A DNA stretch of 64,000 nt. Source: Stentor roeselii (taxonomy: Eukaryota; Ciliophora; Heterotrichea; Heterotrichida; Stentoridae). The stretch covers positions 85,780-149,779 of the forward strand of contig RSEH01000106.1 in assembly GCA_006503475.1 (NCBI GenBank). The letters are read 5' to 3'. A program made the position numbers and the translations under genes. Below, in pieces: positions 20,144 to 64,000 of this stretch (positions are counted from its first letter, which is position 1; each line of letters begins with the position of its first letter). Under the pieces are notes generated by a model. The model ran no database searches. It was not told where the DNA came from and saw nothing but the letters and a program-made list of their open reading frames with translations.

Positions 20144-20536
20144 ATGTTCTTTAGGTCTTTACTTGTTTTACTTGCAGCTGTTAGGGTCAAGTACCCTGGG
20201 CATACCTTCTGTGGTCCTGTTTCTTGCTGGAATAAATTGGACTGGGTCATCAGAAGCTTATTGGTGCTTCTTAGCGCTACTGACTATGCAAATCTTGAAG
20301 TCGCTTGGTGGATCCCGATGCTCTATGTCGCTATTCCTTGCTATCCTTGGCATGTCATTTTGACAGCGGTTGTTAATGATAGACTCAATGGATTGCTCGC
20401 TGTTATTAGTATTTATGGACTTTTACAGTCACCTTGGAAATCTCTCGTTATTTATAGAGGAGGGATTCTTGTTACTGCAGGAGTTTGTCTTTATATTTAC
20501 TTGATCAAACTTGGATTGGTTAATTTAATATTTTGA
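20144..20536 (+). CDS. Small multi-pass membrane protein
   Basis: 130 residues with about four hydrophobic segments and a Cys/Trp-rich loop (CGPVSCWNKLDW). Started at the Met at 20144 because the first in-frame Met (20084) lies inside the preceding gene. No family recognised. Codon bias looks like the neighbours rather than random AT-rich DNA, but a second frame is also long across its first half, so the N-terminal part is less certain. Confidence 0.55.
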   Translation: MFFRSLLVLLAAVRVKYPGHTFCGPVSCWNKLDWVIRSLLVLLSATDYANLEVAWWIPMLYVAIPCYPWHVILTAVVNDRLNGLLAVISIYGLLQSPWKSLVIYRGGILVTAGVCLYIYLIKLGLVNLIF

Positions 20537-24155: not shown

Positions 24156-24163
24156 TATTTATA

Positions 24164-24305
24164 ATAATGATTTTTCTAGTGTTTTTCAAGTTTTTCAGAA
24201 AAATTTTGTTTAGGTGATTTACATTTTTTATAGAATAATGATTTTTCTCGTGTTTTCAAGTTTTTCAGAAAATTTTGTTTAGAAGGTGATTTACATTTTT
24301 ATAGA
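24164..24305. repeat. 71-bp imperfect tandem duplication
   Basis: Two adjacent copies, 24164-24234 and 24235-24305, share nearly the whole 71-bp unit with a few single-base changes and 1-2 bp indels in T and A runs. It lies in the non-coding stretch. A slippage or unequal-exchange product. Confidence 0.8.
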
Positions 24306-25415
24306 ACATTTATCGCTTTTATATTGAGATTTAGCTGTGGTAAAGTTATTGAAATAAGACTCTTCGAAAGTCGATAAAATTGGTCGATCATCTTCAATAA
24401 ACTCTACTCTCAAATTACAAAGACAATTATCCATTTAACCCAAATTCTGCTTAATTAATTAATTAATTTCCTGCCAAAATTTGTATTTTTTTCATCACAC
24501 TGATCAAGATCATCACTTTCAATATAGAAATCCTTTTGGGAACTCATTAAAATAAGCCTTCTTACCAAGTTAGCTATAACTTTAATTGTAGCATTAACTT
24601 TTTTATCCTGCTTCAATTATTTTTGATTTTTTTACAACTCAAGAAATCACTTAATCTATCTTTAGCATAAACTTTTGGTCTGCTCCTTCAAAAAAAAACT
24701 TTAATTTTATTAGGTTTTAATAAATTGATTGGCATTTCATCACATAAAGTTTAACTTGATCAATCTACTAATTAACATTTTTTGAATTTCTCTCATTCAA
24801 ATTAAGTCTCAATAACCTTCAGATTTTTTGCCTTTCCATTTTGCAAATGGTTGATATTCGATTCACTTGATTGTTTTAACTTCTTGAAGTTCTCATGGGT
24901 ATTCTTAGTTTCTTAATTATCTGACATCTAGCCCGGATCAATCAAAATATTATTAAGATGTTCAAATAAAGATTAGATAAAGAGTATCGCAAGAACTAGA
25001 GATTTGGATTTGAAATCGAAATGATGAGAATTGATTATTAGATCAAGATAAAGATCAATCAAAATTTTTTCAAATCAGAGATTCATAGAATCTTTCAAAT
25101 AATTTCTTGTAAAAACATTTTCTTGATTGAATCTATTATCAATTTTTTCAATTATTTTAATCACTTCGAAATATTTTTAAAAGGAATCGTTAGATCTTTA
25201 ACCATTTTGAAATATTAATTGATTCTGTCGTTATGATTCAGGCTTGTCCAAGATAAGAGTATTTAATATTAAGTTGTTATTAAATTAAGGCCTCAGATGC
25301 TTTATCTAATAAGGTAGCATCCAATACATCTACCTATTCTAGCCATCAATCATAAAATTCATATCTATAAATATCTCCTTTAAATTATAATATATTCTTT
25401 TATTTGTAAATTAAT
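24306..25415. other. Gene-poor AT-rich stretch
   Basis: About 1.1 kb with frequent stops in all frames, short homopolymer runs and one TTAATTAATTAATTAA-like microsatellite near 24450. No RNA gene or gene recognised. It may hold relics too degraded to read by eye. Confidence 0.4.
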
Positions 25416-35868: not shown

Positions 35869-37397
35869 TCTCGTTCAATGTCGTCGAGTTTCCACAGCAG
35901 TCTTTCTTGCTTCTCCTTCAGTGGAGCCTGGGAAGGGTTCAAGTCGCAGCACATTGAAAAGCAGTTCAAAAGACAGCCGTTTTGAATTGCTTGGGACTCT
36001 TCGTCGGTGTAATGACTGAACCTTTCATTCGTGGTCATTCCTGAAGCCAGGTTACCACTTTGAATGAAAATTAAAAGACTAACTAGTATTAAAAATACTG
36101 TTTCAACCAGGACCAAAACGATAATTGAAACAATCAAAGCGAATTTTGGAAGGTCGCCTTGAAAATCATCAAAATTATAAAAATCTTCCCAGGAGTCAAA
36201 AATAAACTCCAGGTCTTGGTAAAGACTGGCAATCAAAAAAACCGCAGTGCAAATAATAAACAAGTAGAAAAAACCAATATTTTTCGCCCCGATGCAGTTA
36301 TTAATCCATGGACAGTGATGATCAAACTTTTCAACACATCTATTGCAGACCTGGCAATGAATCGTCCTTGGTTTTCTCTGAGTCACACAAGAAGGACAAA
36401 CCATTCCAGCTTCATTTTCATTGCAAAGCTGCTGAAGAGTCTTCATATTCCTAGGCAGTACCCCTGGGTCCTTAAAAGCAATAAAAACAGTGAAAACCCA
36501 CTGAAGACCCATGACACCCAGATAATAACCCTCATCAACTTCAACAACCAGCAATTTTAACAGGCTTCCAACAAGTAAAAGCGTTAAAAACAACATAAAA
36601 AGTCTATAATTCGAATGAGTCTTCCTCGTTGGAGCTCTCAACCCGCAGGTAGTGATCCAGCCAGGTTCAGCAAGAGCTTTAAGAACCTTTTGAAATCCGT
36701 AGTCTTTCGCGAAGTCCGTTGGAGTCCTGCCCTTTGCATCAGAAACAAAAGGATCAGCGCCGTTCAAAAGCAAAATTCTTACAATTTGACTGTTTCCGTT
36801 AATCGAAGCCAGGTGCAAAGGGGTCAGTCCTGCCAGGTCCTTGGAATTCACTGAGACTGACCAAGAAACAAGCGTTAAAACTGTCAGTTCACAGCCGAAA
36901 AAAGAAGCCCAGTGCAAAGGAGTCGCACCTTTTTCATCAACACTCACGATGGACAGACCCTGGTCTTTTAAGTAACAAAGAAGCTGCATGTTGTTTGACT
37001 TCGCTGCAAGGTGAATGCATGACATCCCGTTGTTGGCAAGGATTGATAAGTTAGACCCTTCAGATATCAGAAATTGAACCATGTCCTAAGTTTGAATTAC
37101 GAAGTTTCCGATTATTATTGAAATGTGAAGAGCTGTCAAATTTTCATCGTTTTTTTGGTTTAGCCAGGTTGAAATATTTTCAAATTTGAAGTACTTTTTA
37201 GTGTATTCAAGTAAAAACTCTGATTTTTCTAGTAAATTGTTCGATGCGCAGACTTGGATCAGAGTGTTTCGCGAAGAGTCAAGAACTGAGACTGGGTTGA
37301 TTTTTAGATCTGTGAAAAAAGTGTAAAGGTCTAGTAATGATCCTTTTAAAAGTGCGGATTTAAGCATTGAGTACTTTTCTTTTTCATATGTCGACAT
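35847..37397 (-). CDS. Ankyrin-repeat DHHC palmitoyltransferase (HIP14-like), one 15-nt intron
   Basis: 511 residues encoded by exons 37397-37101 and 37085-35847, joined by removing a 15-nt intron (37086-37100). Unspliced, the frame ends at the intron's TAG; spliced, the ankyrin region runs on as IIIGNF-DMVQFLISEG. Ankyrin repeats fill about 30-245 (HLAAKSNN, PLHWASFFG, PLHLASING, DFAKDYGF). Two membrane helices follow, then the DHHC cysteine-rich domain at about 340-390 (C-x2-C-x9-HC-x2-C-x4-C-x4-DHHC-PW-x2-NC-x-G), and two more helices. This is the HIP14/AKR1 layout: a Golgi or vesicle S-acyltransferase with Cys of DHHC as acyl carrier. Confidence 0.93.
37086..37100 (-). other. 15-nt intron in the ankyrin-DHHC gene
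   Basis: Reads GTAATTCAAACTTAG on the coding strand. It removes an in-frame TAG and joins two halves of an ankyrin repeat. Confidence 0.93.
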
Positions 37398-45963: not shown

Positions 45964-48900
45964 CTAATTCTTTTTGAACCGCAGCGACAAAGTAATGCTC
46001 GGCTGAGCCACAGTCTTGGCAGTTGTCAAATTTTGAGTCTCCAGCTGGCTTTCGACGAATTTCTTTTCAGCTTCTGACAACTCGCTTAGGCTTTTTTGAA
46101 AGGCTTCTGAAGAATTCACGTGAATGTAAGTCAGAGCTTTCGATACTGCCTTGATGATCGGCAGTGGGTAGCTCTGGTGGTAGAGAGACAGGAAGAGAGG
46201 GAAAATCCCTGAGACTGTTTTTGACTTGTCGATTGACTTCAGGTAAATCGTCATTAGTAACTTGATGGTCTCTGTGATGAAAACTGTTTCTTCGTTGTTG
46301 TAGTTCGCTTTTCGCACTTGGAAGACTTTTAGAAAGACTGGAAGGAAGTGAATGAAAATCCAGGAATTTTGAGGCTTTTTGCTGATGAAAATGATTATTC
46401 TGCATGAAAATTGGTCGTGTTGAAGCAGAAGTTTTTCTATTTTCTTTAAGATTTCTCCGAAGTTTTTTATTTCGTCTTCTGGCTTTTGAGATAAAAACTC
46501 TAGAACCACTTCGAGATGGTTTGATTCCCAAAGATTATTCAGAATAAATATTGCTAAGAATACATGGAATTCAAAAAAACCCTGCCTTTTCCAGATTTCG
46601 TCCAAGATTGATAGTGCTAGATCTATATTTTTCTTTAAAGTTTGAATGAAAAAAGATAAAATTGATGAAATGATTTCTTTTTCATTTACGTTTTTCTCTG
46701 ATGTGATCATCGAGGCATACTTGATAACTATCGAACCCCAGGCTTCATGTGATTTCAAATCGAGTTCTGAGTAGTTTGATCCAATCTTTCTAACTAAACC
46801 TTCTAATTTTTGTAAGTCGGTAAACTGTGCAACTTCAACTTTTTTGCAAATTTCAAGTATAAGATTTTTAATCGAAACACTAGGAATATTTTCACAGAAT
46901 TCCAAACAAATGACAAGTTCAGAAACAATCTGAGGATCTTGAATGAACTTCACAATGCTGGAGAGAGCTTTCAAGACTTCTTCCCTTCGCTTGAGACATC
47001 GATTAACCTCAGCTTGGCAAGTGAACCCAGTGCTTTCTCGACTAGCACTATAAGGCAAGAACAGAAACACAAAAATGTTAGAAATGAAAAACTCAAGGTC
47101 CTGAGAAGGGTTAAGAACAAGAACAGCTCGAATGAAGACTTCGATGGAGGCCATCTTGACATCTTCATGACTGATCAGGTGTTTGCCAAGTAAAAACTTA
47201 TGATCCCTTAAAGTATTTTTGGACTGAGTGAAGAAAACACACATATCCTTGAGCAGAACAGTAAAATGGTCAATCAAAACTCGTGAATGTCTGCATTTCG
47301 CTTACTCTTTAATCAGGTCAGCAACAAAAGCCGGGGCTTGAAGCAGTGACTTTCCAATTAAAAACAGCCGAGCAGTGTAAAGTTCAGTGGCTCGAGCTTC
47401 AGTGTATCCTTCTTTATCTAATTTTACGTTACTTCTGTTGTTCAAGCTGTTCACCAAGTTCTTCAAAAGACGACTGATCACTTCTGAGTCGTGGGTTCCT
47501 GGAACTATCAAAAACTGTCGAAGCAGGTCGCATGACTTGAAGCAAAGGTCCATGTTCGGACTGTCGAAATTCTCTCGAATCGTTGCACTGAGCTGTGCTT
47601 CGAAAATTTCCAAATATTTCTTTGAAGGCTCGTCAGGGTCGACCATTGACGAAAAAGTCTAAATTTGAGTTACTTTGAAAATCGTCACTGCAAGGTCCAA
47701 ACCTTTTAAACTCAGCTTCTGGGAAAAAGAAGTCAAATGCACTGAAAAGTTCAAAAATTCCTCGATTGAACTTTGGAATAAATCCGGCCTGGCTTGGATC
47801 TGCAAGACCAACTTTTCACTTGCGAGAATTTTTGACTTGTGTGAAAAGAACTCGAGGGCTTGCTGGGTGTTTTCGCGGTCGTTCAATGATGAGAGTCCTT
47901 TATTTTCTTCTTCTTGTTCTTTTTCAACGCTTAGGATGATTTCTTTGAGCTTTTTGAAGCTTTCTGGATGTTTTTTCAGCCAAAAGTCGATGATTCTGGC
48001 CAAAGCGCTTTCCACTTGTGAGTCATTCGACCTATCGTAGAACCTGAACCACTCAAGAAGGTTGAATTTCTGGTAAATTTCTTCTAATCCGTATTCACAA
48101 ACAAATAAAACAGATTCTTTTTCTGGGAATTTTTGTAAAGCGTGGTCAAGAACTTCTTGAAAATTGAAATCAGGACATTTCACCAGTTGCGAGGCACAAA
48201 AATACCCAAAACAACTTTTTTTCCAAGTGTTTTCCCAGACAAGTTTAGCTCTAGAAAAGAAAATATCAGAAGAGTTCGTCGAAATCGCCAGATGTTTCGA
48301 GCAAAGCAGCATCATCGTATCACTAAATCTGAATTCTGCAGGGTTTTCATTGAGGTAATGATGATACCCCAGAGGAAAAGTGGCTTTGAAGACATTTTCA
48401 ACTTTTGCTTTATGTGTTGAGTAAGCTTTGAGCAGAGCATGCAAAGCCCAAGCTCCAACATTTTCGTCTCTTGAAATACTTTGAATGATGTGTCCCAGAG
48501 AGTCTTGATTCTTTTCTAAAACTGCGATGTCGAAGTGTTTATACATGTTTCCCACCTGCATCACGATGCCACTTTTGACGTTTGGAGAAGTTTCAGATAA
48601 AATGATGCGATGTTCGATTTCTTTCATAAAAACGGGGATATACTGCGCTTCGCTCATGACTTTGCATAAGTAAATCATGCTTTCTGAAAACAAACATTTG
48701 GTTAGAGGATGAGAAAAGCCCTCCACTGAGTTCAGCATTGTTTTGATGCACTTGGTGAGGATGGAGTCAGTGATTACCCCTCGGATTGAACTTAATTTCA
48801 TCAGACAGCCGTGGACTGCGAGCAGAATAGTGCAGATTTTGTTGAACTTGCCTTGGACCTCTTTAGCCTTCGCTGCAGTTGCCAGGTGCTGCGAAATAAA

Positions 48901-51327
48901 CGAGAAAAGTTTTTGTCTGTTCGAGACGTTTAGAGAACTGTTTGTAAAAATTTCAGCGAAGAGCTTAACTGCACTTGAAAGCATGTCAGTGAACAAGTGG
49001 CTTATCTCGTTTTTACCTTCCCAAGAATCATAAACTCCTTCACTTGTGACGATTGACAAGGCGTGTAAAAAGTGAGCAGGTTTATAGGAATGTATGTAAA
49101 TCTCTTCACAGCTAAGCCAGGTGTCAACAAGCTGCATCATCCCATTGGCTCTTTTCCCGTTTTTCCCTGAAAAGTAAAAAAAAACCGGTTGGGTGTTAGT
49201 TTTTTCTGTAACTATCTCGGAATATATCGGGTTCAAAATCAAATTTATCTTCGGCCCAATGACAGTCCCTGGAAGCAGCAGGAGACAATCATAAAGGTTC
49301 TTTCTCAGTTCATTCAAAGTGCCTGGAGAACAGTTAGATTCAAGGAACTGCCGATGTTGAGTCGAGTTCTTAGCAGGTGATAAGAACTGAAGAGCATTAG
49401 ACAAGTAAACAATCAGAAGTTTCAAAATCTGCGGCTGAAGAAGTGATTTGTTGTTTTTCATGAAATTCAACATGGCACTGCTTGCTACTTTCTTGTGAGT
49501 CACTTCGCCGATCATCCAGGCAGGAGAGACCTGCTCACAGATGCAAGTTTTTCTTCCGAAGGGCAGTTTCCAGAGTTTAAACAGAAAATTCAACCGGCTT
49601 CCCACCCACGAAGGTCCTAAGAACATCAGACCGTCGACCAGGATCCAGGCAGCCTGTCGTTTCGCGTTGTCGATTTCTTGCATCCCCGCATCAGAACAGA
49701 ACATTTTCTCTTCTTCTATGATATCTCCTTGGTACTCAGAACTTACCAGGTTCTTGATGGTGTTGAAGGTGATTTCGGTTTCTTCCACTGGAATTCCTCT
49801 TTCACTTGACGGGAGAAGTTTTATCAGAGTTGAAAGGCAGCAGCTGGTTCCAATCAAACTGTTAATCGCGATGTGAAGACTGTCTTTGGTGTAGCTTTGT
49901 GATCTTAAACATTCTAACTCGGCGTAAGCGATTGTGGTGCTTGTTACCATTGTTGAAAGTAAGGAAAGGACTGAACTTGAATTTTGTTTTATCAGTGACT
50001 CGAATGACCAACATACTTGCAGCTGGATTCTAGGAAACTTTAAAAGAGAAGTCAGAGATTTTTCTAGGTCTTTTTGGTCAACTTGCAAGTCTTCAAAGGT
50101 TCCAACGATGATTGAGAGAAACTTCAGGTAAACTATGACCTGGTACTCGTTTGAATACTTCAGAGGGTCAGGGTCGTTGCTTTGAAAGTCTAATTGAGAA
50201 AAATTAGAGATTTTTCCTTTGATATGCTCGAGACACAGTCTGGCCTGGCCTTGTGCCAGGCCTTTAACCAAGCAATTAAAGAGCCAGCTGACCACTTCAC
50301 AGCTCCACCAAGATTCACTTTCATTTACACTTATCCGAATTCCAATCCCCGCCAAGCTTTCAAGAAAACTATTCATTTCCGCCTGGCCATTCAATGACTT
50401 TCTAGCAAATTTCTCATAAGTCGTCTGGGCTGCCAGGACCAGTCCGACCCTCACTTCATGCGAAGTGAACCTTGTGATGTACTGAGTGATGAAGTAGTTC
50501 ACATCATTCAAAGTTTTTGGGAACTGGTCAAGAGACTTGCGCTGACTCGTGAAGCTGTGGCCGCAAAGCGATGAATCGATCGACATGCTTAAAATTTCTC
50601 CTAAGAGTCTTCCTGCGAAGATTGAAGAGTTCTCTTCCATGATTTTCAGACTTGTTTGGATACAGTTTTCGAACTGACCTTGGAAAATCTGAGGGAAAAA
50701 ACTCGCGATTGTTGTCAGGCCTTTCGCGCATAGACTCCGGAGTTCAACGTTTTTTTCCTAAATAGTTTTTACACTGGCTGATTTCAGGTAAAAGCGAAGG
50801 AATTCTGATGAACTTTGAGAGAGGTTCGTTGGACGAGATCGGAGTAACTTGTTTAAAGACTGCAAAATTACTCGTTTGCCTTGAAAATCGGAAGATTTTG
50901 ACAGTTTTTTGCAGGAATCAAGGATTTCTTCGTTTGAAGGAGAGACCAGTTTTGAGCTGAAGTGTTTGAAGATAAAACCGATTATGTCTACTGTGGTCAA
51001 CTTGCTTTGATTGGAATGTTTCAGTGATTGAGACAGCTTTATTAATTCGCTTAGAAATGACTGAATCTTCGTTGGCTTGCTCTTCATCAAGAAACTCTCC
51101 AGAGCTGACTTTATTAGACGACGTAAAGGGTTTGATGAGGCTTGACTTGATAGATATAACAAAACTTGCTCTAGGGATTGACTGTGCTTTGATATGTCTT
51201 GGATTGAGTTGATTTCTGATTTTATACTGAAAAGAAGATCGGCTTTTTTAATGTTCGAGGAAGATAAACGAGGGTTCTCGTTTTTCAACTCTTTTTCTAG
51301 GGAATCTATCAGCTGGCCGAGTTCCAT
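45964..51327 (-). CDS. HEATR5/Laa1/SWEETIE-like HEAT-repeat protein, three 15-nt introns
   Basis: 1772 residues from exons 51327-50773, 50757-47674, 47658-47306 and 47290-45964. Each break between open segments is exactly one 15-nt GTAA...AG intron, and removal keeps the frame. The protein is alpha-helical HEAT repeats throughout. It resembles HEATR5 in blocks such as SHEVRVGLVLAAQTTYE near residue 290 and AAWILVDGLMFLGPSWVG near residue 555, matching the family's Q-A-G-W-L-L-L-G-A-L-M-x-LGPS segment. HEATR5/Laa1 proteins work with AP-1/clathrin at the trans-Golgi and endosomes. It is somewhat shorter than animal HEATR5 (about 2050). Confidence 0.82.
47291..47305 (-). other. 15-nt intron 3 of the HEATR5-like gene
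   Basis: Reads GTAAGCGAAATGCAG on the coding strand. It splits a Glu codon, removes an in-frame TAA and joins DLIKE to HSRVLIDHF. Confidence 0.85.
47659..47673 (-). other. 15-nt intron 2 of the HEATR5-like gene
   Basis: Reads GTAACTCAAATTTAG on the coding strand. Phase 0; removes an in-frame TAG and joins TIFK to TFSSMVDPD. Confidence 0.88.
50758..50772 (-). other. 15-nt intron 1 of the HEATR5-like gene
   Basis: Reads GTAAAAACTATTTAG on the coding strand. Phase 0; removes an in-frame TAG and joins KSAS to EKNVELRSLCAKGL, which continues a HEAT repeat. Confidence 0.9.
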
Positions 51328-51913
51328 TAAGTATAAATAGGGTTAAGAAATTTTCATAAATGATTTTAGAACTTTAAGGATTTTTTAGTAATAGAATTAA
51401 GTGGATGAATTTTTTAAAGTGTGCATGAAAGATTCTTTCGAATTATTAACTATAGATTTTACTGTCAAATTTTCTTTGATTTTTCATTTATTAGCTATTC
51501 TAACATGCTTTACAATTTAATTTAATTGGTCTTAATAATTTTCCTAGGAATCGATTGATTAACTTAACTTTCAAATATTTTAAGAACTCAGGAAAGAAAT
51601 AGAACTCAATTTTCTTAATAATCAATAAACTTGACCGTAATTTAGTACTTACTAAACTTGAGGAGTTTCTGTGCATGAAAATCTCAAAGAATATTTATAA
51701 ATTAACCTATCAATTTCTATAAGATATTATAGCTTAAGGAATCGAATTAAATGTTATATAATCATAATCAAATAAATTTGAGTAAAGAAAATTGTAGCGT
51801 TGGTTGAATTCATGATATTTAAAAGAAAATTACTTAGGAAATCTTATAAAAAAACATCATGGCTTCTAGAAAATTCTAAAAAACTTATAATTTGTTAGAA
51901 TAAAATCTTTATA
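51328..51913. promoter_or_regulatory. Divergent intergenic, start of the subtelomeric zone
   Basis: 586 bp between the divergent HEATR5-like and TPR genes. AT-rich, no coding signal. From here to the telomere, genes are sparser and AT-richer. Confidence 0.5.
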
Positions 51914-54100
51914 ATGAATAAATATTTGAAGCTCGATCTTAAAGGAGATTACCAAGTTACTTTACTGACATCTATAAAAGGGATATCAGTCACTGTTGAA
52001 GCAAGAAATGGAAAGAATCAATGGGTGGGGAATATTAAAGACTTTCGGTTTATGAGAAATATTTCAATGACACCAACATTCATTAAAAGGAATATATTTA
52101 TTAATGAGAAGACCTTAGAACTTCACTATTGTAATGGGCTTCTTGGGGCTGGGTCAGCAGCCACAAAAAGTAATCAAAAAGGAAAAAAATCCAGTTATCT
52201 TCTTAAAAAAAATCTGCAAAACAATACTTATATAGAGCCCTTAATAGAAAGTAACTCAAAACAAGATATTAGCAAATTTTCTCATAATATCGATGGTACA
52301 GAAAATATAATTCCTAAAACATTTTCAGCAATCCAATATGAAAACTTTTTAACAAATTGTTTTCCGAAAAGATTTGATAATGTTGAAACCTTTTCAGAAG
52401 AAAATGAAAATTTCATATTAAATAAAGGATACTCACTGACAGATCTTGAAGAAAACTTTGATAGTATTCGTAAAAATGATCCAGTCTTAGCAGACGCCTT
52501 AAACAGCTTAGCAATTAGTTATCAAATAAAAGGAGATTTTGCTAAAGCCGAAACAATTTACTTAAAATGCTATCAAGTACTATATTTATCATCATCTACG
52601 AATGCATTACAGATTGGTACTTTGTATGGAAACCTAGGTTCACTATATGAAAATAAAGGAAAATTACGAAATGCAGAATATTACTATAGAAAATGTCTTG
52701 ATAGATACATATTCAAGCTTCCATGGCTTCATCCTGATTTTCCAAACATATATAATAGACTTGGATCACTTAGTCAAATCAGAGAAAGTTTCATAGTAGC
52801 GGAAGATTATTACCGCGATTGTCTAAAAATATTCTTAGAAATGCTACCAGAAAATCATAAAAATTTTGCAATAGTTTACAACCGAATCGGATATCTTTTA
52901 CAGAATATGGGAGATCTCAGAATGGCTGAAAATTATTACAGAAAAAGTCTTGAAATATCTGAAAAAGTTTTTTCAATAAATGATCCAGAATTAGGTTTAC
53001 TTTATAGGAATTTGGGCTCATTATATGATATAAAAGGAAATTTACAAAATTCAGAAAAATATCTAATCAATTATTCAAGATTAAATAAAGAAGGAATTCC
53101 AATCAATAGGTTAGAATTGGCAAATTCATTTAACAGTTTTGGAATATGTTATATAAAAAGAAAAAACTTTTTATTAGCAGAAAACTACCTCTTCGAATGT
53201 TTAAATATTAGAGAAGAAATACTTCCGAAAGCTCATCCAGACTTAGGCAGCTCTTTCAATCAAATAGGTCTCCTGTATCAAAATAGAGGGAATCTATCAG
53301 AAGCAGAAAAGTATTATGAGAAATCTTTAAATATATTCAAACAATTAGGTACAAAAAAAAATTCAAGGCTAGGTATATTGTTGTGTAATTTAGCATCCCT
53401 CCATGAAATTAAGAAGAATTTTACTGTAGCAGAGGGTTATTACTTAAATTGCCTTGAATTATACTCAAAATTTCTTCCAAAATATCATAGAAATCGAGCA
53501 ACACTATATTGCAGTTTAGGGTTACTTTATCATACTATCAAAGATTACTCAAAAGCAGAAAATTACTTATATCAAAGTCTCGAAATAAGAAAAGAAATGC
53601 TACATTGCAATGATCCAGACATAGCCAACTCATTACACAGCCTTGGATTTTTTTATATAAGCAAGGGAGATCTTTCTAAAGCAAAAGACTATCTAATTAA
53701 ATCTTTGGACTTAAGGATAAAAGTTCTTTCAGAATTTCATCCAGACCTAGGAATATCCTTTAAAACCTTAGCCTATTTATTCAAAGCTAAACGAGATTAT
53801 TTACATGCAGAGTATTATTTAAAAAAATATCTAAATATTTACAATATAATTCTTCCTGAAGATCATGACATAGACATATTGCTTTGTGATATTGGATTAA
53901 ATTATGAAAGTTTAGGTGACTTTACATCAGCGATAGGATATTATCTCCAAGCATTAAAAATCCTTGAAACATCAGCTTCTAAAGACCTGGAAAAATTAAC
54001 AGATGTTTATCAAAGAATAGCATCACTATACAATCTTTGTGGAGAATATGAAAAGGCTAAACAATATCTAAGCAAGATCAACGTAACTATACTTGATTAA
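51914..54100 (+). CDS. TPR protein with 13 tandem 42-residue repeats (kinesin-light-chain type)
   Basis: 728 residues. The first 190 residues are unlike anything I know; the stretch KGISVTVEARNGKNQWVGNI may be a small beta domain. From about residue 193 to the end, 13 repeats follow with a strict 42-residue period, each like LYxNLGSLYxxKGxxxxAExYYxKCL followed by a loop with HPD (for example LHPDFPN, AHPDLGS, FHPDLGI). This is the TPR_10/TPR_12 pattern of kinesin light chain and of NLR-type sensors, and it acts as a protein-binding superhelix. No effector domain was seen. Codons are AT-richer than in the core genes. Likely a member of a subtelomeric, repeat-driven family. Confidence 0.85.
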   Translation: MNKYLKLDLKGDYQVTLLTSIKGISVTVEARNGKNQWVGNIKDFRFMRNISMTPTFIKRNIFINEKTLELHYCNGLLGAGSAATKSNQKGKKSSYLLKKNLQNNTYIEPLIESNSKQDISKFSHNIDGTENIIPKTFSAIQYENFLTNCFPKRFDNVETFSEENENFILNKGYSLTDLEENFDSIRKNDPVLADALNSLAISYQIKGDFAKAETIYLKCYQVLYLSSSTNALQIGTLYGNLGSLYENKGKLRNAEYYYRKCLDRYIFKLPWLHPDFPNIYNRLGSLSQIRESFIVAEDYYRDCLKIFLEMLPENHKNFAIVYNRIGYLLQNMGDLRMAENYYRKSLEISEKVFSINDPELGLLYRNLGSLYDIKGNLQNSEKYLINYSRLNKEGIPINRLELANSFNSFGICYIKRKNFLLAENYLFECLNIREEILPKAHPDLGSSFNQIGLLYQNRGNLSEAEKYYEKSLNIFKQLGTKKNSRLGILLCNLASLHEIKKNFTVAEGYYLNCLELYSKFLPKYHRNRATLYCSLGLLYHTIKDYSKAENYLYQSLEIRKEMLHCNDPDIANSLHSLGFFYISKGDLSKAKDYLIKSLDLRIKVLSEFHPDLGISFKTLAYLFKAKRDYLHAEYYLKKYLNIYNIILPEDHDIDILLCDIGLNYESLGDFTSAIGYYLQALKILETSASKDLEKLTDVYQRIASLYNLCGEYEKAKQYLSKINVTILD

Positions 54101-56578: not shown

Positions 56579-56890
56579 GAATGTTTATGCTAGGTTAAAT
56601 TTTTTTTGAATTTGGTAATCAAGTTTAGGTTATTGAGTTTAGAGATATTTAGTATAAAGATGTGATAATCGGAGGAATGAGGATACTGTAATAAATATAT
56701 TTTTATCAATTTGAAGTTTTTAAAAATTATTAAAATCTCTAATCAGATAAAATTATCAAGCGATCAATCAGAATTGATTTTAAAGCCTTTCCTACAAATC
56801 CACTAGTAGTAATTACTTGAATTTATATAAGTTTTCATTTTTTCTATATATTTACCAAATCTATAATCGACTTTTTCATAAATATAAAAA
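56579..56890. other. Intergenic, about 310 bp
   Basis: Upstream region of the first GTPase gene; AT-rich, nothing specific seen. Confidence 0.4.
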
Positions 56891-58207
56891 ATGGAAGCTG
56901 ATTTTGACTTCAGTGTTGTTGTTATTGGAATGAGCAGATCAGGAAAATCTGCGTTTCTGAATGCTCTAAAAAACTATTTGGAAAATCGTTCTCCTGAAAA
57001 TTTTATTTACTCATTTGATTCAAATTCTAGACCTACTGATATTGAAACAAAACTTAAATCCGAAATAGTTATCTCTCAGCATAATGGCAAAAAATATTTA
57101 CTTATAGATACTCCTAGATTATGCGATACAAGCGGAAATCTAATAAGTAAAGAAGAAAACGCAAGGATTATACTGAACAATCTTAGAAACCTTAAATATA
57201 TAAATGCAATTATATATGTTAATAATAGCACCATATGTAGAGTTACTAAAGAATTTCGAGAAGCTGCATCATTAATGCTAAAATTTTTGGTTGCTGATGT
57301 TAGAAAAATAACTTATTCAGTATTTACTTTTAGTTCAAATCAGCAATTTATGGAGGATGAAGATTTAGAAAATGATATTAAAAAAGTAGAGAAGGTATTA
57401 AAATTTAAAATAAATCCCGAAAAAATAGTTAAAATAAACAATATCTTCTTCGATTCATCACAAGAAAAAATTAAGAATCATTTAAAAGCAGTTACTATGA
57501 AATGGAATGAATTTAAAGAACAAAAAATAGCTATTATAGTGCAATTGATAGAAAGAGAAAGTGTAGAAACTAATCAATATGAATTATTCGAGGATTTTAT
57601 TTATAAGATAATCGGAAATATTACTGATTGTGCCAGAAACTATTATAATCTAAATTGTGTAAAAAATCAGAATTTAATTACTAGTAATTTTACAAATACA
57701 GAAACTAATAAATCAGAAGAGGAGAATACAATTCAAAAGCGTCTCATAGATACTCCTGGAAAAAAAAATTACTATTGTGCATATTGTGAAAGAAATTGCT
57801 TTGAAAATATTGGATTATTTTGTGGAGTAAAGTTCAAAATGTTACAGGCTTTTTATTCTAAATGTAAGATATGCAAATGTAAAAATGTGTATCATATTAT
57901 TGGATATAAAGCATTTAGTCAAATTACTGAAGATTTAAGTGAAGTCAAAGAAAATAATGAGAAAATTCTTACTCAAGTATATTTAGATCCCGAAACAATA
58001 AATAATATTATTTTAAATACTGCAAAAAGTATAAATGAGATAGAAAAAATTATTCCAGAATACTCAGTTAGAGATATAATTTCTGAAATCAAATCAATTA
58101 TTTTAGAAGAAGTGCAAAATCACCAAGAAAATTCAATATCTTATAAACATGTGATTATCGATGTAATCAATCAACTCGAAAATTGTCTTATCAACAAATT
58201 AGTTTAA
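56891..58207 (+). CDS. AIG1/GIMAP-like GTPase with Cys-rich tail, copy 1
   Basis: 438 residues, paralogous to 60375-61577. The G domain spans about 6-200: P-loop GMSRSGKSAF, then the LLIDTPRLCDT switch-II region, where the usual D-x-P-G reads D-T-P-R, then INAIIYVNNSTICRVTKEFR. A canonical NKxD is not seen (TFSSNQ occupies that place). After a helical linker, residues about 295-340 hold a Cys cluster (C-x2-C-x3-C, later C-x2-C-x-C and H) that probably binds zinc. The C terminus is helical. AIG1-type GTPases act on membranes and in immunity in plants and animals; the ciliate role is unknown. The lost glycine may lower hydrolysis. Confidence 0.75.
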   Translation: MEADFDFSVVVIGMSRSGKSAFLNALKNYLENRSPENFIYSFDSNSRPTDIETKLKSEIVISQHNGKKYLLIDTPRLCDTSGNLISKEENARIILNNLRNLKYINAIIYVNNSTICRVTKEFREAASLMLKFLVADVRKITYSVFTFSSNQQFMEDEDLENDIKKVEKVLKFKINPEKIVKINNIFFDSSQEKIKNHLKAVTMKWNEFKEQKIAIIVQLIERESVETNQYELFEDFIYKIIGNITDCARNYYNLNCVKNQNLITSNFTNTETNKSEEENTIQKRLIDTPGKKNYYCAYCERNCFENIGLFCGVKFKMLQAFYSKCKICKCKNVYHIIGYKAFSQITEDLSEVKENNEKILTQVYLDPETINNIILNTAKSINEIEKIIPEYSVRDIISEIKSIILEEVQNHQENSISYKHVIIDVINQLENCLINKLV

Positions 58208-59955: not shown

Positions 59956-60374
59956 ATATAGGAAAATTAAAAAAAATGCTTGATTGCATTATTAATCATG
60001 GCTATTTTAGTTTAGATTAATAAATTTGATTCTAAATATGTTTTTAAATTCAACTAAATGATAAATTCGCTTAAATGAAGTCTAAACTAACTAAAAAAAT
60101 CTTTTAACTATTAGAAGAGGAACTTATTAGTATTTGTTTTATATTCTATAAGTTTTGTAAGCATTTTCTTATCCCAGGATTAATCTATATTTTTGTTAAA
60201 AATATAAATATAATTATAAAGGTATAGATATATTATCGATTTTTTCATATTGAAATCCACACATTAATAATTATATCATTGAAGTATTCACAGCGGAACT
60301 TATGCTTATTAGTATCATACAGACATTTTTATAAGTTCTCTATGATTATTCTATAATTTTTGTAATAATAAATA
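59956..60374. other. Intergenic, about 420 bp
   Basis: Upstream region of GTPase copy 3; AT-rich, no other signal seen. Confidence 0.45.
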
Positions 60375-61577
60375 ATGGAAATAATACCCAATTATGATTT
60401 CTGTGCTATAGTTTTGGGCCTATCTGGCCATGGAAAATCTGCACTACTTAGTTCTTTGTATAACTACCTCAGTGGGAACTCTCCAGAAAATTTTGAGATT
60501 CCTTTTCCTGTTAGTGGAGGGTCAAGGAGTTTAACCGAAGCAGTTAAATATTATCCTATTAAGAGTATCCACGACCAAAGAACATATCTCTTCATAGATA
60601 CTCCAGGCTTTGATGATACGCAAGGAACTCAATCAAGAGAATATGAAACCTTGAGGGATATTAAACAAAATTTAAACAAAATAAAAAAAATTAATGCTGT
60701 GATTTATGTGAAAAATAGCACAGTATATAGACAATATGAATCATTCAGAAAAGCTTCAAATTTAATTCTTAGAGTTTTAAATAATGATATTAAAGAAATA
60801 TCAATTGCAGTACTAACATATGTGGATAAAAATAATGATATTTTATTTGAGTATGATAATGGAAATGGTAGATATATCAATCCATTAATAGAACAGACAG
60901 ATATTAGGTTTGATGAACGTAGGATTTTCTGTGTTGACAATAAAATTCATAATTATACAAAGAGTCAAATAAAAAAAAATGCGGTTAGGGCTAATCAATA
61001 TTGGAATTCATTTTGTAATGAAGAATTAAGCCCTGTTATAGAATCAATAAAGCAAAAAGAAATTCAAAATACAAGGCTATATCAAATTAATCAATTTGAA
61101 CAACGAATATTAAATAAAATTAATGAAACTGAATCAATGCTTAAAATTCTTGAAGGAACTACGTGTGGGTATGTTCTAAAAAAATCCAACGACCTTCATT
61201 ATATTTGTAATGAATGCTTCAGAAATTGTATTGATAATCCTGGTAGAATAAAAAGGTTTATTTTATCGATAAAAAAATTCTTTAAAAAGTTTTGTGATGA
61301 ATGCTATCATAGATGCAATGATCATGGAAGTGATTATTATTATTGGGAAGTCGAATATAAATACAATAATATTCAGAGATCAAACAGTTTTGTAAAACAA
61401 TACAAAAGTGAACTAAGAAATTATTATGAAGAATTAAAACTTGAAATAAAATTATTGAAACATATAGAGCCGGATTATAATATAGAGAATTATATCCTAG
61501 AACTTTCTTTTGATAAGAAGGGAAAAATTTATCAGTTTATTCAAAACATCCTGGACAATAAACCATATCAATATTAG
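60375..61577 (+). CDS. AIG1/GIMAP-like GTPase with Cys-rich tail, copy 3
   Basis: 400 residues. G domain about 6-215: P-loop GLSGHGKSALL; SGGSRSLTEAV as the likely switch-I Thr region; DTPGFDDTQGT as a canonical switch II; KINAVIYVKNSTVYRQYESF; then TYVDKNND in the place of the G4 motif. A helical region leads to the Cys cluster at about 275-320 (C-x2-C-x3-C, then C-x2-C-x3-C-x2-H), spaced like that of copy 1, probably zinc-binding. The C terminus is helical with no membrane anchor. All G motifs look usable, unlike copy 1. It is the best reference for this three-member tandem set. Confidence 0.8.
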   Translation: MEIIPNYDFCAIVLGLSGHGKSALLSSLYNYLSGNSPENFEIPFPVSGGSRSLTEAVKYYPIKSIHDQRTYLFIDTPGFDDTQGTQSREYETLRDIKQNLNKIKKINAVIYVKNSTVYRQYESFRKASNLILRVLNNDIKEISIAVLTYVDKNNDILFEYDNGNGRYINPLIEQTDIRFDERRIFCVDNKIHNYTKSQIKKNAVRANQYWNSFCNEELSPVIESIKQKEIQNTRLYQINQFEQRILNKINETESMLKILEGTTCGYVLKKSNDLHYICNECFRNCIDNPGRIKRFILSIKKFFKKFCDECYHRCNDHGSDYYYWEVEYKYNNIQRSNSFVKQYKSELRNYYEELKLEIKLLKHIEPDYNIENYILELSFDKKGKIYQFIQNILDNKPYQY

Positions 61578-63530
61578 AATTAATAGAAGTTATTTTAACT
61601 TTAAATATGCAATATTTTAATGAATCAACCAAAAGTTTAAATTTGGTCTATTAAGACGGCTACTTAAATAGAAGAATTAATAAAAATTTTGAATTATATA
61701 TATATCAAAAGAACATATATTTTATACTAGTCTTCATAATTTTATATAAAAATGAATTGATTATCATCTTGATAGGAAGTCTTGATAATTTCTGCACTTA
61801 AAATTCACAATAGATAAAAAATTACAAATCATAACTATGCATGTGAACTAATAAGGACTTTTAACTTATATTGATATATATATTTAAAAAATAAAGACTA
61901 TTCTTAGTGCGATCTTTTAGATTTATTTATGAATATGATGAACATTTAAAACATAGAGGACTATGAGAACTATATCATTAAGCCTATCTAAACTATCTTA
62001 AATACAATCCGTACATTTAAAAATCATTAAAGCTTCAATAGTAAATTATTTTAAAACAGTTAGTCAATAATAGTTGGTATATCTAATTAACCGTTTCGAT
62101 TATAGTAAATTTTATGAAATATAAAAATAAAAAAAAAAATCTTCTTAAGCCAAAAAAGATCATTCCAATAAGTTTATTCCAAACATTTATTAAACTTTAT
62201 TGATTTTTTAGAAACTTCTATTTTCTATGAAGACTTTTCATATAAAGAGTTAATAAACGAAAATGAGGCAATTGGAGTATCTACAAAATGACTTGGATAT
62301 TGATAATTAAGGTTTTTATTATAATCAACTAAAACAAATGCATAAAAATTTTAGGCATAATCAAACGAAAAATCAATAAAAAACATATTTATCTAGAGTG
62401 ATTATTATAATTATGCTATTCGAGCTAAAGACACGATAGAACTTTATAATTATAAAATATAAGGAAAATATAATTATTATTCTACTGAATTAAGTCATTC
62501 AAGCTTGAATAAGTTTCTTAAAACCAAGAAAATATTTTAAATATACTTAAAAATCAATTGATAGTAAAAAATAATCAAAATCTATCCAGTTTTAAGCTGG
62601 TAAAGTAAATTTTATTACCAAATTTACAAAATTTAATATAAATCTAGTAACTTATTGAGTTTTGTTAAAGTTACAATTTTTTTTAAGGCATGTTGTGTAA
62701 ACCTACTATCATTCTAATTTTTTCCTATGCCCTCCTCATTTCATTCTATTATCGCATACTCTCTACCTTATGATTCATGCCTATCGTTTTTTATGTAATA
62801 TTTTTTTTAAATGAAAGAATTGGATGGGAAATAAAGTGAAAACTTACATTTCAAACTTGAAAAGGAGTAGTCATCCTACCTGGGATTTTAACACTTTTGT
62901 TTTTATTTTTGCTTATTATACTGGAAAAGGTGGAGTCGTCATTACACCCTAAGTTTATTAATACTATAAAAGATTTGCTTAAGAGAAAAATTTTTTAAAA
63001 GACTAACTTGTTTAAAATAAGAGAGTATTAGAGAATTAAATATCTGAAGAAAGAGATGAACTAAGATTCTATTAGTTTATTTTTTTATTTGATGTTGATC
63101 ACCAGAATAGATTGTTTGTGAAAAAAATGGAAGATAGATAAATTGAAGGAATGAGAGAGACTGGAATGTTTTAACAAACAGTTATGAGACTGAAATTAAT
63201 ATAAAGGCTGAGGAGTGTATATAGAGACTGAAGAGATCAGATATAATTTAAAATTTAGCAAAAGGATGAAGTACTAACCTGAAGGAATATATTGAAGGGA
63301 TGTTTTTGCAAAAAAAGTATTAGAGAAAGAGTGATGAGAAAGAGAGACTGAAATTATTAGATAAATTAAATAAATGAGAAAGACACTGAAGAAATGATAG
63401 AGACTTTAGGGATGAGAGGTACTTAGAAATAAACTTTGATTAAATATGAAGTAAAGATTTGAAAGATGTAGAAATAATATAAGAAATATAAAATCTCGGA
63501 AATTCCAAGTAAAACTAAAGAAACCCTATT
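61578..63530. other. Subtelomeric non-coding region
   Basis: About 1.95 kb without a believable gene. A coding-like patch near 62400-62530 (YNYAIRAKDTIELYNYKI) may be a relic but is too short to judge. From about 63000 to 63480 the plus strand is strongly purine-rich and carries repeated short GAGACTGAA-like words. No RNA gene was recognised. Confidence 0.45.
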
Positions 63531-63848
63531 CTAATTAATTTCTAGTTCCTTCAAAAATGCCTCCCAAAGTCTATTCCTATTAAATCTTCTCCATATGAAA
63601 ATAAAAATGCGATCTTACCTTAGTAGTTCTGTTTCTATCTGTTATAATGTACTTAAGACCGTTCAAAGTACCTTCTATTTAATTAGTGCATCCACCAGTT
63701 GTATGATTCATGTAATTTTCACTATGGTTCACTGTTTCATGATTATAATACTTCTGAAGGTCGTTATATCCCTTCCAGCAATCAGTAAATATTAATGGTT
63801 CTGGAAGTACATGAGACTTCACTACTTCTGTAAGTGTGTTATTAGATC
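63531..63848 (-). mobile_element. Transposase relic, ISXO2/IS1595-type DDE, truncated by the telomere
   Basis: The minus strand encodes the C-terminal half of an ISXO2-like (IS1595/IS1016/Merlin-type) transposase: HVLPEPLIFTDCWKGYNDL, with the second catalytic Asp; HETVNHSENYMNHTTGG; a TAA in the HTN-x-IEG motif; IEGTLNGLKYIITDRNRTTK, with the catalytic Glu; then, after a one-base shift, FIWRRFNRNRLWEAFLKELE before TAG. The coding sequence is followed upstream to RSNNTLTEVV, where the telomere repeats begin, so the N-terminal half with the first Asp is absent. One stop, one frameshift and the truncation make it dead. No terminal inverted repeat was identified. Confidence 0.85.
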
Positions 63849-64000
63849 TGTTAGGGTGTTAGGGTGTTAGGGTGTTAGGGTGTTAGGGTGTTAGGGTGTT
63901 AGGGTGTTAGGGTGTTAGGGTGTTAGGGTGTTAGGGTGTTAGGGTGTTAGGGTGTTAGGGTGTTAGGGTGTTAGGGTGTTAGGGTGTTAGGGTGTTAGGG
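63849..64000 (+). repeat. Telomere, 19 x TGTTAGGG
   Basis: 152 bp made of 19 perfect 8-bp units with the G-rich strand running 5'->3' toward the window end, as at a chromosome's right end. The repeat matches the CCCTAACA type I recall for heterotrich ciliates. The array continues to the window edge, so its full length is unknown. Confidence 0.98.

Follow-up and report, generated by a model that had tools for sequence, protein, structure and literature searches.

A telomere adjoining a truncated and decayed Merlin-type transposase copy in DNA of heterotrich-like character

When a ciliate telomere lies directly against a transposase gene, does the junction mark a place where transposon-derived DNA directs chromosome breakage, or is it an ordinary chromosome end that happens to fall within the remains of a transposon? 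This question is raised by the right-hand end of the window, as we call the whole stretch of 64,000 nucleotides analyzed here. The window ends in a telomere, this telomere truncates a transposase-derived sequence on the minus strand, and that sequence is itself decayed. We know of no chromosome-breakage signals in the heterotrichs, the ciliate class concerned. Only if Merlin remnants turned up at many of the telomere junctions in this genome would transposon-derived sequence be tied to ciliate chromosome fragmentation; taken alone, the locus is one more ciliate somatic telomere junction together with one more decayed Merlin copy.

The telomere and the DNA leading up to it

The window closes with 19 perfect copies of TGTTAGGG on the plus strand (63849-64000; 100% match in the tandem-repeat finder), the C-strand of which reads CCCTAACA. 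The G-rich strand runs 5' to 3' toward the window end and thus points outward, as is proper for a telomere on the right-hand side, and no copy deviates from the repeat, the one at the junction included. Counted over the whole window, the TGTTAGGG octamer was seen 20 times against 0.90 expected by chance, and its sole copy beyond the terminal array lies at position 20179. The telomere starts at 63849; positions 63849-63856, which the original prediction had included in its range of 63531-63856, are the first repeat. The left end of the window was also checked and carries no telomere repeat, and the window therefore belongs to a larger contig or molecule, of which it represents one side. The telomere repeat of Stentor coeruleus is of the same CCCTAACA type. 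This repeat is also the one named for Blepharisma in the text of PMC9942806, and the window end accordingly has the form of a heterotrich macronuclear end, namely a CCCTAACA-type telomere with its G-strand outward.

Other features of the window also point to a heterotrich. Under the standard genetic code, the window holds 33 open reading frames (ORFs) of at least 150 codons, the longest of 2,108 codons, and when TGA is read as sense, only three among the 12 longest gain length (2 to 35 codons). The window thus fits the standard code, whereas Blepharisma reassigns UGA; this is Stentor-like rather than Blepharisma-like, although other standard-code heterotrichs would fit too. The standard code is given for Stentor coeruleus in PMC10942620. 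Ciliate code 6, in which TAA and TAG encode Q, was also considered, as under it the transposase would lie in one long frame, and a frame of 576 codons would surround a GTPase-like ORF (MMR_HSR1; 60372-61577, plus strand, 401 codons), which is the last long standard-code ORF before the telomere. Two observations led to the rejection of this code: the standard code already leaves the GTPase ORF open, and the 2,108-codon ORF contains neither TAA nor TAG.

On the minus strand, three 15-nt stretches with the form GTAA...TAG were predicted as candidate introns (37086-37100, 47659-47673, and 50758-50772); the frames that each would join extend without a stop for at least 50 codons to either side. A fourth candidate has the form GTAA...CAG. 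These candidates come from sequence only, and the scan has a noisy background, with 18 candidates at 15 or 16 nt and 0-12 for each of the other lengths from 10 to 25, so that only the GTAA...TAG candidates were used. Predicted introns of the 15-16-nt size class sought in heterotrich macronuclear DNA are thus present, and introns of predominantly 15-16 nt are described for Blepharisma (PMC9942806). Overall, the repeat, the standard code, and the candidate introns suggest a Stentor-like heterotrich macronuclear contig.

Coding density falls toward the telomere. On both strands taken together, ORFs of at least 150 codons occupy a fraction of 0.32 of the last 8 kb, compared with 0.59-0.93 in the seven other 8-kb blocks. 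Subtelomeres are often AT-rich and ORF-poor, and the end of the window is AT-rich as well; however, AT-rich stretches are also found internally, for example at 20-26 kb. A 71-bp tandem repeat in two copies (24163-24306) also lies in AT-rich sequence. In addition, a purine-rich stretch with degenerate GAGAGACTGAA-like repeats lies beside the transposase remnant at 63001-63500 on the plus strand, where A+G reaches 66%, the top 500-bp value of the window (window mean, 51%). These degenerate repeats were not reported by the tandem-repeat finder.

Could telomeric sequence simply have been misjoined to internal sequence during assembly? The window stops within the repeat, with the contig end outside view, as such an artefact would allow. 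However, the correct orientation, the perfect repeats, the ORF-poor approach, and the possible microhomology at the junction (see below) are all as they would be at a real end, and we consider an assembly artefact very improbable.

The truncated transposase and its decay

The minus-strand frame that abuts the telomere, at 63682-63848, encodes a fragment of a DDE_Tnp_IS1595 (Merlin/ISXO2) transposase, as identified by Pfam and NCBIfam profile matches and by alignment with eight relatives. The frame matches PF12762 with 44.7 bits (E 1.9e-11; profile positions 60-133 of 153) in a query in which one TAA was read as Q and to which the telomere contributes the first residue, N, and one base of the codon after it. 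The 55 stop-free residues that contain no telomere bases (63846-63682) still score 35.7 bits (E 1e-8), and both values exceed the gathering cut-off of 27 bits. NCBIfam NF033547 (transpos_IS1595) is matched with 46 bits (E 5.7e-12), a score under its whole-protein cut-off of 75. The original prediction that the telomere directly abuts a minus-strand ISXO2/IS1595-type transposase frame is therefore borne out by the 19 repeats and the PF12762 matches, and the protein similarity on which it had been staked is present above the gathering score.

The fragment lacks a complete DDE triad. In all eight aligned relatives, the first catalytic Asp (within V/I-x-x-D-E, by eye) lies upstream of the point at which the fragment switches to telomere, so that the loss of the N-terminal part together with this Asp, likewise predicted, holds; the region of the first Asp has been replaced by telomere. 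The second catalytic Asp is kept at 63783-63781 (a coordinate counted by hand), and the third catalytic residue, Glu, which is found in seven of the eight relatives, lies at 63675-63673, beyond a stop codon. The alignment comprises hand-picked sequences, one from an unverified phage record and seven from plasmids. Merlin/IS1595 elements are characterized by terminal inverted repeats starting with GG and by a target duplication of 8-9 bp; here, one end of the element is absent, and the window revealed no further copy of the fragment. The fragment is most likely without function now.

Truncation is not the only damage. An in-frame TAA, a stop in the standard code, interrupts the conserved TNxIE motif at 63679-63681 on the minus strand. 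The transposase reading continues past it as IEGTLNGLKYIITDRNRTTK (63619-63678), which holds the Glu, and the family-like reading then departs from the fragment frame between 63600 and 63619. A C-terminal remnant follows in another frame (63531-63614), ending in FIWRRFNRNRLWEAFLKELEIN and closed by TAG at 63533-63531; it reads FIWRRFN...ELEIN, and its likeness to the EFxxRYN-type end of the relatives was judged by eye. Neither the piece beyond the stop nor the one beyond the frame break matched a Pfam family when taken alone. The nonsense codon and the frame break fall within about 110 codons, in a window with 30 stop-to-stop ORFs that reach 180 codons or more (antisense overlaps included). 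The transposase thus has no intact ORF, and the copy is a pseudogene in the standard code of this genome, a remnant rather than an element. The telomere alone thus does not account for the decay of the copy, in which a nonsense codon and a shift of frame are found as well.

An intron was considered as the cause of the TAA and the frame break and is judged unlikely, as a scan of 63440-63860 for intron-like GT..AG stretches (lengths 12-34) found none of 15 or 16 nt. GT..AG stretches of 14 nt and of at least 17 nt are present in this region, and these do not fit the tiny candidate introns elsewhere in the window.

The decay of the remnant, together with an AT-rich, ORF-poor end of the kind seen in many subtelomeres, would be in keeping with an old break in the germline, in which a micronuclear end was re-capped long ago inside the transposon and both nuclei inherit it. 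However, the frame beside the telomere has stayed open for 55 codons, the telomere repeats show no mismatch even in the first copy, and AT-rich stretches also occur internally, which together make an old germline break improbable.

The fragment has only distant relatives among the sequences searched. Neither a close relative nor an uncut version of the locus came to light there: of 34 pattern matches in genome contigs and three in viral contigs, none was confirmed, and a plasmid search at E 1e-5 gave zero matches. When the plasmid search was relaxed to E 10, 89 records were obtained, the best E-values among the matches listed being 7e-4 (Spiroplasma) and 8e-4 (Piscirickettsia). Six of the matches listed were to Pantoea plasmids, five under an alpha/beta hydrolase annotation and one under none, and these are probably due to chance. 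Among phages, the E 10 threshold yielded 194 records, of which Vibrio phages accounted for 192, and one unverified phage record had an E-value of 8e-3; the eight Vibrio phage matches among those listed align 26 residues to hypothetical proteins and are probably chance matches as well. Among solved structures, two PRDM9 sequences were matched (E-values of 4.5e-5 and 7.8e-4); no individual stretch passed on its own, and this similarity is probably compositional. The bacterial IS1595 transposases of plasmids, including ISAcra1, are mostly annotated insertion-sequence genes; they share a homologous catalytic domain with the fragment, to which the eight aligned relatives are 26-34% identical, and are distant relatives only.

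Origin of the junction

Merlin-related genes have been reported from heterotrichs. As described in PMC8101967, those of Stentor coeruleus and S. roeselii are preserved, divergent ORFs of 381-425 aa that carry no recognizable terminal repeats; several of them have no conserved DDE motif, and the authors of that paper think that the genes were domesticated. The window copy shares the DDE_Tnp_IS1595 domain and, probably, the kind of host with these genes, and terminal repeats are recognized in neither. In contrast to these preserved ORFs, the window copy is cut short at a telomere, and its reading is interrupted by a stop and by a frame break. For Blepharisma, PMC9942856 lists the IS1595 domain among the transposase domains and describes some DDE/D copies (family unspecified) that have no intact triad. 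Merlin-domain genes are already reported from Stentor and Blepharisma; in a genome of this kind, one decayed copy is no surprise.

The same can be said of the telomere. In Blepharisma stoltei, 46,705 potential alternative telomere addition sites are given in PMC9942806, of which 38,686 have the support of one read. These resemble the window in using the same CCCTAACA repeat and in combining internal telomere addition with a gene-dense macronuclear genome and predominantly 15-16-nt introns. Because scattered telomere addition is thus described for a heterotrich, a telomere inside a gene or a remnant needs no special cause. It counts against this comparison that the description is for Blepharisma, whereas the host suggested here is Stentor with its standard code.

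We therefore favor, with somewhat better than even confidence, ordinary de novo telomere addition within an old Merlin remnant at the end of a macronuclear chromosome (or of one of its isoforms) in a Stentor-like heterotrich. A longer molecule would have been cut, or left broken, within the dead Merlin-type transposase remnant, and telomerase would then have capped the broken end with CCCTAACA repeats. This capping would probably have been a de novo addition during macronuclear development, with the remnant lying at the break by chance, and a short telomere-like match in the gene (the P-N codons, CCTAAC) perhaps seeded telomerase. This explanation is favored because of the perfect outward repeat, the transposase homology, the decay of the copy, the ORF-poor end, and the heterotrich-like traits, and also because of the alternative addition sites of Blepharisma with the same repeat and a family-conserved N or D that is encoded here by telomere bases.

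This last feature concerns a possible microhomology, the bases CCTAACA at 63849-63855 on the minus strand, which may be shared between telomere and gene and which were identified from alignment columns by eye and a count of repeat phases. Read in frame with the transposase, the telomere ends in codons for P and N, followed by a single base that begins the codon for R. At the position of this N, each of the eight relatives carries N or D (four N and four D; columns read by eye, with an aligned query that already contained the telomere-encoded N), and the residue just before it is P in five of the eight, the others having G, K, or T. The original gene may therefore have held CCTAAC at the junction, a telomere-like match able to seed telomerase. 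However, only one of the eight possible repeat phases gives N at that codon, which would put the probability of a chance match at about 1 in 8, and we infer that the microhomology is a lead rather than a result.

A junction of this kind could also be produced in another way. In Paramecium, imprecise elimination of transposons and minisatellites is followed by rejoining or by de novo telomere addition, as summarized in the review PMC7599177, and the window is similar in that a chromosome end at transposon-derived DNA is telomere-capped. By analogy, the Merlin element itself could have been a target of programmed DNA elimination, with an imprecise cut and telomere capping of a flanking end inside the element; the truncation of the transposase by the telomere and the purine-rich, repeat-like stretch just inside the junction would be compatible with such a process. 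However, the capped molecule still holds about 100 codons of the element, the Merlin-related genes present in Stentor assemblies (PMC8101967) indicate that this class of sequence is not always eliminated, and only one junction is available. Paramecium also belongs to a different ciliate class and has a different telomere repeat. Blepharisma-like scattered addition or Paramecium-like imprecise removal could each give such a junction, and we regard elimination of the element as possible but unlikely here.

The original prediction went further in suggesting that the junction may mark a breakage site at transposon-derived DNA during macronuclear development, or else the healing of an old break by a telomere. 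Its descriptive part, a telomere within a truncated transposase-derived copy, stands; that transposon DNA marks breakage sites does not follow, because only one junction is available. In a more specific form of the breakage idea, Merlin remnants would serve as chromosome-breakage sites because a transposase of Merlin origin directs the breaks to them. The position of the junction inside a Merlin remnant would agree with this, as would a result of PMC9942806 on Blepharisma: of the 100 genes with the strongest up-regulation while the macronucleus develops, nine contain transposase domains, and IS1595 is among these domains. However, the break lies in mid-coding sequence, away from the element end, where a cut by a transposase would be expected, and it is a single case, so that direction by a Merlin transposase seems extremely unlikely. 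The broader proposition that heterotrich Merlin remnants act as breakage or telomere-seeding sites, with a conserved, telomere-like stretch of the gene (the P-N codons, CCTAAC) being used by domesticated Merlin proteins or by telomerase to fix where macronuclear chromosomes end, is a highly doubtful one.

In the literature on neighboring topics, mostly non-subscription papers, we met no earlier report of a telomere within a Merlin remnant. The junction is real but ordinary: it fits the known trimming and re-capping of ciliate working chromosomes and represents no new phenomenon.

Other genes in the window

The genes that were scanned are eukaryotic in kind and include a BEACH protein, a kinesin, a kinase with cyclic-nucleotide-binding domains, and a DHHC protein with ankyrin repeats. 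In addition, a 733-codon ORF at 51899-54100 consists largely of tetratricopeptide repeats (TPR_12 and TPR_10). The AT-rich last 8 kb contain two GTPase-like ORFs (MMR_HSR1), the one at 60372-61577 mentioned above and another at 56888-58207, which are possibly members of one duplicated family.
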